Shown here one piece after another: positions 62,270 to 63,962 of a stretch of 64,000 nucleotides of DNA. Source of the stretch: Candidatus Merdivicinus excrementipullorum (GTDB lineage: Bacteria > Bacillota > Clostridia > Oscillospirales > Ruminococcaceae); the NCBI GenBank assembly GCA_018716725.1, contig DVJP01000066.1, positions 1 to 64,000 on the forward strand, in the 5' to 3' direction. Under the pieces are notes generated by a model. It saw only the letters and a program-made list of their open reading frames with translations, had not been told where the DNA came from and did no database searches. The position numbers and the translations under genes are program-made. Position 1 is the first letter of the stretch, and each line of letters starts with the position of its first letter.

Positions 62270-62959
62270 TTATTTGGAGGGGTATTTTTTGTAGCCGGGA
62301 TGGCGGCCGGTGACCTTATAGTAGTGTTTCCGCAGGTACAGGAGCTTGTCGATCTGCTCCATGGGGATTTCCTTAGCCCCGCCCAGCAGATGGGCGTTTA
62401 AGCTGATTTTGGCGTACAGCTCTAAGGTTTCCATGCGGTAATAGGCGGTGAGCAGGTCCGCCCCCACAGTCAGTGCGCCGTGGTTTTGCAAAAGCAGCAC
62501 ATCGTGGTCCTGAAGGTAGGGGGTGATGGCCTCGGGCACCTCGTCGGTGGAGGGGGTGCCGTAAGGGGTCAGGGGGATGGAACCGATGGCGATAACCGTT
62601 TCAATCATGGAGTATTCGTCCAGGCTTTTTCCCGCAACCGCGTAGCCGGTGGCAGTGGGGGGATGGGCGTGGACAACGCCGTTTACGTCGGGGCGCTCCC
62701 GGTAGCAACGCAGGTGCATCTTGATTTCGGAAGAAGGCTTGTAGCCGGGCTGGCCGTCCAAAACCTCGCCTTTGTCGTTAATTAAGACCAGCTTTTCCGG
62801 GGTGATAAAGCTCTTGCTGATGCCGGTGGGAGTGGCCAAAAAGGTGCCGTCCTCCAAGCGGACGGAAACATTGCCGTCGTTGGCGGCAACCCAGCCTAAC
62901 TGCCACATTTTGTGGCAGACATCACAGATTTGTTCTTTGATTTCACAAATATCCTGCAT
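62270..62959 (-). CDS. class II aldolase/adducin-family protein
   Basis: A 229-residue zinc-dependent enzyme of the L-fuculose-phosphate aldolase/L-ribulose-5-phosphate epimerase family. The metal site is in VVHAHPPTATGYAV (HAH), and the later His is in LLLQNHGALTVG. GNVSVRLEDGTFLATPTG is the phosphate-binding region. Substrate is undecided: fuculose 1-phosphate, ribulose 5-phosphate or methylthioribulose 1-phosphate types share these motifs. It stands alone, with a promoter at 63011-63039. Confidence 0.9.
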   Translation of the reverse strand: MQDICEIKEQICDVCHKMWQLGWVAANDGNVSVRLEDGTFLATPTGISKSFITPEKLVLINDKGEVLDGQPGYKPSSEIKMHLRCYRERPDVNGVVHAHPPTATGYAVAGKSLDEYSMIETVIAIGSIPLTPYGTPSTDEVPEAITPYLQDHDVLLLQNHGALTVGADLLTAYYRMETLELYAKISLNAHLLGGAKEIPMEQIDKLLYLRKHYYKVTGRHPGYKKYPSK

Positions 62960-63010: not shown

Positions 63011-63039
63011 ATTATACTCGGAAAAAGAGGTTCTTGTAA
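63011..63039 (-). promoter_or_regulatory. promoter of the class II aldolase gene
   Basis: On the minus strand TTACAA (63039-63034), 17-bp spacer, TATAAT (63016-63011), about 50 bp before the start codon. Confidence 0.75.
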
Positions 63040-63197
63040 ATACCTGGGATAAATTTTTATAAGAAAATAGAAAAAATTAAGCATTTTCACGATGAATCCG
63101 CCGCTTTTTCAGGGGATTTTGGGAGAATCCGGGAGGCTTCGGCTTTTCTGCACAAAAGGCGTACGGGGAAAATAGGCGATTTGTGGAGTATTATGCC

Positions 63198-63226
63198 TTG
63201 CCAAAAAGCTAAAGATGCTTTAAAAT
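63198..63226 (+). promoter_or_regulatory. purE promoter
   Basis: TTGCCA (63198-63203), 17-bp spacer, TAAAAT (63221-63226). It resembles the miaB promoter in both boxes and spacing. Confidence 0.7.
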
Positions 63227-63377
63227 AAAAGTAGCCTGTTTTACAGGATGGATTACAGAATGAGCCTGAAAGGCCGGAAGGAGGACGTCTGCATTGAAAA
63301 CATTCGGGGCAGGACGGCGCTTGGAGCTTTCCGGGGGATTTCTGCACGTTGTAAGGGATGCCCGCTGAAGGGATTTT

Positions 63378-63416
63378 GCTGCGATTTTTGAAAGGGTCGC
63401 GGCTTTTTCATTTTTT
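63378..63416 (+). terminator. leader terminator (attenuator) of purE
   Basis: GCTGCGA (63378-63384) pairs with TCGCGGC (63397-63403) with one G-T pair, followed by TTTTTCATTTTTT. It lies about 50 bp before purE and 150 bp after its promoter, so some control must let polymerase pass. Confidence 0.75.
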
Positions 63417-63464
63417 GCGGCGTCGGATTTTTAAACAGGGAAAACAAAAACGGAGGAATGGAAG

Positions 63465-63962
63465 ATGTCCAAAAAAGTTGCAGTGATTATGGGCAGCGAC
63501 AGCGACTGGGGTACTGTCAAAAAGGGCGTTGCCGTCTTGAAGGAATACGGCGTGGAAACCGAGGTCCATGTAATGAGCGCCCACAGAACGCCGGCAGCGG
63601 CGGCGGAGTTTGCCTCCAAAGCCAAGGAGAACGGTTTTGGCGTCATTATTGCCGCAGCGGGCATGGCCGCCCATTTGGCAGGCGTCCTGGCCGCCCATAC
63701 CACTCTGCCGGTCATCGGCATCCCCATTAAATCGGCGGCGCTGGACGGCATGGACGCGCTGCTGGCCACCGTCATGATGCCGAAAGGGATCCCCGTGGCC
63801 ACCGTCGCCATTGACGGCGCGGCAAACGCCGCTTATCTGGCTGTCCAAATGCTGGCCCTTTCCGACGAGGGCTTAAGCGGCAAGCTGGAGGCTGCGAAAA
63901 AACAGATGGCGGAAGAAGTAATGGCCAAGGACGCGAAGCTCCAGGCAGAAGTCAACGATTGA
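63465..63962 (+). CDS. purE: N5-carboxyaminoimidazole ribonucleotide mutase
   Basis: A 165-residue purine-synthesis enzyme (class I PurE). Seen: VIMGSDSDW at residues 8-16, the SAHRTPAAAAEF loop with the catalytic His, AAGMAAHLAGVLAAHTTLPVIG-type core near 64-85, and PVATVAIDGAANAAYLAVQ. The ATG at 63465 follows GGAGGAATGGAAG. A purF-like gene starts 20 bp downstream. Confidence 0.97.
   Translation: MSKKVAVIMGSDSDWGTVKKGVAVLKEYGVETEVHVMSAHRTPAAAAEFASKAKENGFGVIIAAAGMAAHLAGVLAAHTTLPVIGIPIKSAALDGMDALLATVMMPKGIPVATVAIDGAANAAYLAVQMLALSDEGLSGKLEAAKKQMAEEVMAKDAKLQAEVND

Follow-up and report, generated by a model that had tools for sequence, protein, structure and literature searches.

A Leader Open Reading Frame and a Consensus Pause Site before purE Suggest a pyrBI-like Coupled Attenuator in Oscillospirales

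In the rph–pyrE attenuator, which is of the same type as that of pyrBI, a coupled ribosome prevents termination. The same has been described for E. coli pyrBI itself (PMC4824070; PMC10135430), where the P1 pause partly resembles the sequence G-11G-10Y-1G+1 (PMC10135430). Elemental pauses in general have been assigned the extended consensus G-11G-10T-3G-2Y-1G+1 (PMC6062546). In E. coli, ribosomes repress a terminator almost completely when it lies a few base pairs past a stop codon, and termination becomes complete only when more than 27 nt separate the two (PMC4824070). Here, we examine the leader of a purine biosynthesis operon that can be compared with these systems part by part and that is, in our judgment, probably a transcription–translation-coupled attenuator of the pyrBI/pyrE type. 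All of the evidence is comparative sequence, and many of the compared genomes are metagenome bins.

The window, by which we mean the whole stretch of 64,000 nucleotides that was analyzed, belongs to an Oscillospirales genome; of the named relatives that we found, Candidatus Merdivicinus intestinavium is the nearest, with a purE that is 91% identical. The order of elements is a divergent gene (62270–62959, minus strand), a promoter, the leader, an intrinsic terminator and purE (Table 1), with purF-like, purM and purN genes downstream. The divergent gene has a near-perfect promoter-like sequence of its own (TTTACA-18-TATAAT, 11/12; 62847–62865 and 63011–63040, minus strand). A sequence-only reading of this DNA had recognized a good promoter, a leader of about 230 bases and a terminator 50 bp before the start codon of purE, and from these parts it had proposed an attenuator-type leader with conditional termination. 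The promoter was confirmed, and its −10 element and spacing are kept in an alignment of the genus. Because of the position of this promoter, the 5′ end is predicted near 63233, which makes the leader about 230 nt long, as had been stated. The intrinsic terminator also stands (predicted fold of the stem by itself, −12.7 kcal/mol), but the distance needs correction, since the end of the stem is 61 nt away from the ATG of purE. An attenuator-type leader with conditional termination is supported, and a terminator recurs in the same place in purE leaders across genera. Overall, the sequence-only reading is partly supported; what it missed is a leader open reading frame (uORF), and it is this frame before the terminator, together with a pause consensus, that recurs across genera.

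Table 1. Elements of the purE leader and their positions in the window
Element	Position	Strand	Description
Sigma-70-type promoter of the purE leader	63198–63226	+	TTGCCA-17-TAAAAT; 10/12 consensus matches
Shine–Dalgarno sequence of the leader ORF	63278–63284	+	AAGGAGG; from sequence, 9 nt before the ORF start
Leader ORF (uORF)	63294–63368	+	TTG start, MKTFGAGRRLELSGGFLHVVRDAR; 24 codons, stop TGA at 63366–63368
Candidate consensus elemental pause	63335–63346	+	GG-GATTTC-TGC/A (slash at the RNA 3′ end); sequence match
Terminator hairpin	63378–63403	+	GCTGCGATTTT-TGAA-AGGGTCGCGGC; stem of 11 pairs, starts 9 nt after the uORF stop
Terminator U-tract	63404–63416	+	TTTTTCATTTTTT; read from sequence, directly after the stem
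purE	63465–63962	+	First gene of purE-purF-purM-purN; TIGR01162, 188 bits

The same order of parts is present in the purE leaders of many other genera, which number in the dozens. The encoded peptides are mostly unrelated and typically 18–45 residues long, and a strong Shine–Dalgarno sequence recurs ahead of the frame. Cultured species with such a leader include Clostridium methylpentosum DSM 5476 (L077) and Pseudoflavonifractor capillosus (L061). Detection was performed by simple scripts on 206 distinct leaders, of which 143 were called as having a terminator. A uORF had to follow a Shine–Dalgarno match of at least 5 nt and to end −3 to +16 nt from the stem, and dinucleotide shuffles provided the background. 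With these settings, a uORF preceded by a Shine–Dalgarno sequence adjoins the stem in 68 of the 143 terminator-bearing Oscillospirales purE leaders, whereas shuffles gave 2.3 (sd 1.7). For leaders of the window's family that were fetched afterwards and served as a held-out set, the count was 23 of 44 (0.8 expected), and the frames were longer (median 37 aa). Among 83 non-redundant uORF leaders the gap from stop codon to stem has a median of 5 nt and does not exceed 15 nt in 99% of cases; uORFs were called only for gaps between −12 and 40. Judged from sequence, these gaps fall inside the range in which terminators are repressed by ribosomes in E. coli. The window's TTG start codon is counted against the explanation that we favor, and in one other member of the genus (L005) the uORF stop is displaced and the consensus pause is missing.

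The purL and guaB leaders of relatives contain no terminator that reaches the score, and the element therefore goes with purE. Beyond the order, at 40 other Clostridia loci, the pause motif described below was not found next to a terminator, and of the six uORFs called there, most resemble the tail of an upstream gene. At loci L285, L290, L292, L305 and L306 of these Clostridia, a terminator lies in the gap between the end of an upstream gene, probably for a membrane protein, and purE, and the uORF calls of the script look like the tail of that gene. Since promoter, frame and terminator form a complete unit, one may ask whether this unit is an independent small gene, terminator included, with no connection to purE. 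We give this idea very little credence: the peptide is not conserved, many genera have the unit directly in front of purE, and in other families a riboswitch takes its place.

What the RNA would do without a ribosome was judged from predicted folds. For 82 of the 83 uORF leaders, the terminator is part of the minimum-energy fold predicted in the absence of translation, and no antiterminator was seen among these 83 predictions. Termination is thus the predicted default, and antitermination would have to come from outside the RNA. A terminator that forms by default and the absence of an antiterminator therefore set the element apart from trp-type attenuators and from riboswitches. The same folds speak against an amino-acid (codon) attenuator of the trp/leu kind that would sense, for example, glycine, a purine precursor. 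Glycine is indeed 1.6 times commoner in frame than out of frame, but most of this excess is explained by the in-frame GG of the pause, and no amino acid or codon forms a run. We consider an attenuator of this kind most improbable.

The sequence upstream of the terminator (63231–63375) folds no better than its shuffles (z 0.07), and the genus alignment reveals no visible shared structure. The structured aptamer of unassigned class that the sequence-only reading had implied is not supported by this comparison, and the three small pairings that it had listed are present as letters but not as a fold that exceeds the shuffles. One of them, CCTGT/ACAGG, is conserved only in the nearest species. A pairing of CTGC with GCAG around the TTG start recurs in several members of the genus, but its letters are invariant and therefore provide no covariation evidence. 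The claim that no known riboswitch class is present was borne out, as an Rfam cmscan of the leader returned no match at E values up to 5, with the ZTP, purine, PRPP, THF and SAM classes included; the ZTP leaders of relatives are picked up by this search. Based on this empty search and on the upstream fold, we rejected a riboswitch, and the purE leader is very probably not one. The lack of any fitting class could also be accounted for by a riboswitch or protein-binding leader RNA that has so far escaped description. Such an RNA is hardly credible here, given an upstream fold within the range of shuffles, an alignment devoid of visible shared structure and uORF frames that are kept far beyond chance.

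Although the frame is kept, the peptide sequence is not. In 24 alignable uORF pairs the pooled pN/pS is 0.75, a rough figure from short and non-independent pairs, while for these pairs the first 50 purE codons give 0.07. Synonymous change is also lower in the uORFs than in purE (0.16 and 0.35), an indication that the nucleic acid itself is constrained. The uORFs avoid proline (0.38 times the out-of-frame rate), as would suit a frame that needs to be translated fast. C-terminal letters are common to some clades (GISASKFRP, GLFAPKITL, GVIAPNFR) and could be taken as the mark of a TnaC-like arrest peptide, with a nascent chain that stalls the ribosome on a metabolite of the purine pathway; a ribosome stalled near the stop codon would block the terminator as well. 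A corresponding motif, GxxA[PS][KN], was tried and rejected, as its letters occur in all frames with pN/pS near 1 and are those of the pause consensus. Against an arrest peptide, which we regard as highly unlikely, we also count that the peptides of different genera are unrelated and that letters read in three frames are those of a nucleic-acid signal. Because of this reading in all frames and the pN/pS of the uORFs, we conclude that the peptide is not the signal.

The nucleic-acid signal itself emerged when 101 non-redundant leaders were subjected to unsupervised motif discovery, which returned GG..t...TGCa.cCaaa. The core of this motif agrees with the published elemental-pause consensus (PMC6062546), except that position +1 is A or G. 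In the window, the candidate site would place the 3′ end of the RNA at 63345, at a distance of 51 nt from the TTG, with A63346 as the +1 base. Enrichment was tested with the literature pattern GGN6TGCR. This pattern occurs 6–60 nt before the stem in 40 of the 83 uORF leaders (3.4 in shuffles) and in none of 23 purE leaders with a ZTP riboswitch. The pause motif is strand-specific (sense, 45 vs 3.7 expected; antisense, 3 vs 3.1), is rarer than expected at the beginning of the purE coding sequence (7 vs 20) and falls in all three ORF frames (27, 12 and 10). A NusG-dependent TTNTTT pause (−11 to −6) was considered and rejected, because the position table has GG at −11/−10. A perfect consensus is missing from about half of the uORF leaders.

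The distance between the start codon and the pause is distributed unevenly, with no case at 15–29 nt, 3 at 30–44 nt and 28 at 45–59 nt, where 1.7 were expected. The sharp lower edge near 45 nt would correspond to roughly the space that ribosome loading behind a paused polymerase requires. In 18 of 34 leaders of the held-out set (4.4 by chance, sd 1.9), the start is followed by a pause consensus at a distance of 40 nt or more, and in this set pauses are frequent also further from the terminator. The start of the uORF itself shows a second, weaker enrichment of the pause consensus (6 vs 1.8 expected at 0–14 nt; held-out set, 4 vs 1.1 expected). The base that follows GGN6TGY in the first set is A in 37 cases, G in 21, C in 3 and T in none. 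This bias is weaker in the held-out set when taken over the whole segment (36 purines, 14 pyrimidines), and part of the preference for a purine at +1 is a general property of the consensus.

Together, the ORF and the pause consensus in their respective places, the default fold of the terminator and the weak conservation of the peptide, as read from these leaders, suggest the following mechanism. RNA polymerase that leaves the promoter would expose the ribosome-binding site of the leader ORF and would then halt at the consensus elemental pause, roughly 50 nt past the start codon. As the next base is usually a purine, shortage of GTP or ATP should lengthen this pause. Meanwhile, a ribosome would start on the ORF, which has a strong Shine–Dalgarno sequence and a kept frame, and would close up behind the polymerase. 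Because the ORF ends a few nucleotides before the terminator, a close ribosome would mask the 5′ arm of the hairpin, and transcription would run on into purE-F-M-N. When purine nucleotides are plentiful, the polymerase would exit the pause early and outrun the ribosome, the terminator would fold, and the operon would be off. The sign is right for feedback, in that purine shortage would lead through a longer pause and a closer ribosome to an active operon. In B. subtilis, transcription is reported to outrun translation; if this were true of Oscillospirales, it would weaken the coupling.

The weakest step of this mechanism is the sensor, because the purine at +1 is partly generic and because escape from the elemental pause is limited, in E. 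coli, by template-base loading (PMC6336406), so that a dependence of the pause on NTP is not assured. The main rival explanation starts from this step. It holds that the pause merely synchronizes the polymerase with the first ribosome and that the leader senses translation capacity instead of a purine NTP, for instance through GTP-dependent initiation, the supply of formyl-Met and so of 10-formyl-THF, (p)ppGpp or an antibiotic. In B. subtilis tlrB, for example, a polymerase pause is known to allow the leader peptide time to be translated (PMC12288461), and both the generic nature of the +1 purine and the sharp minimum of the start-to-pause distance, which fits ribosome loading, are in line with this explanation. 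On the other hand, the element resides in a purine operon, where other families have ZTP or purine riboswitches, and a purine occupies +1 at 58 of 61 sites of the first set. We view pure synchronization as rather unlikely. A wider reading, that purine-NTP-sensing attenuators with a conserved consensus elemental pause as sensor and coupling as switch are widespread in Oscillospirales in place of the ZTP or purine riboswitch of other families, is offered as a tentative proposal.

The distribution of riboswitches provides the setting for this proposal. Other leaders of the order have a ZTP riboswitch in the same place before purE, which Rfam confirmed in 10 of 10 tested cases, compared with 0 of 10 uORF leaders. 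The ZTP-bearing purE leaders occur chiefly in five families (f16, f17, f19, f20 and f21), and further Clostridia have ZTP or purine riboswitches at this place. The window's genome itself contains a ZTP riboswitch 4 kb downstream in the same pur cluster (L275:5524–5640; G000:C46:67523–67602 onward), followed by a terminator, a purO-like gene and purH, as well as, on a different contig, a purine riboswitch. The pur cluster thus appears to be split between two kinds of attenuator, such that purE-purF-purM-purN would be controlled by the uORF element and purO-purH by ZTP. The IMP cyclohydrolase encoded at L275:5644–7545 is an archaeal PurO-like protein and is separate from a stand-alone AICAR formyltransferase (PRK07106), which amounts to a split purH. 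Between purN and the ZTP leader, a GC-rich unit of 104 nt is repeated in 2.9 tandem copies (L275:5181–5479).

Our search of the open-access literature returned no account of a uORF attenuator in front of purE; most subscription papers lay outside its scope. If the proposed mechanism is true, it would represent a pyrBI-style attenuator for purines, so far undescribed in that literature, and a natural and phylogenetically conserved case in which the consensus elemental pause serves as a regulatory part. It would also supply a purE regulator to many uncultured gut clades for which none is known. The reading also predicts coupling between ribosome and polymerase in Oscillospirales and bears on the question as to whether transcription in Firmicutes is generally uncoupled.

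Among known systems, the leader is most readily compared with that of E. coli pyrBI (pyrL), with which it shares a leader ORF whose end lies at, or immediately ahead of, an intrinsic terminator, a leader pause (here predicted from the consensus) and the lack of both a codon run and an antiterminator (PMC4824070; PMC10135430). It differs from pyrBI and pyrE in that it serves a purine operon in Clostridia instead of a pyrimidine operon in enterobacteria, and in that a consensus elemental pause with a purine at +1 replaces the U-rich pause tract; in its base composition the region is not purine-rich. With the B. subtilis genes tlrB and vmlR it has in common a leader ORF, a pause (here again predicted) that gives time for translation, attenuation and a Firmicute host (PMC12288461). 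Those leaders sense antibiotics by way of ribosome stalling and use a NusG-dependent TTNTTT pause, in contrast to the elemental GG...TGY of the purE leaders. The ZTP riboswitch (RF01750) leaders of purE in sister families occupy the same place and likewise end in a terminator, but where they have an aptamer, the leaders described here have a uORF and a predicted pause. Finally, attenuators of the trp/ilv type also combine a leader peptide with a conditional terminator, whereas the purE element has neither a regulatory codon run nor an antiterminator.
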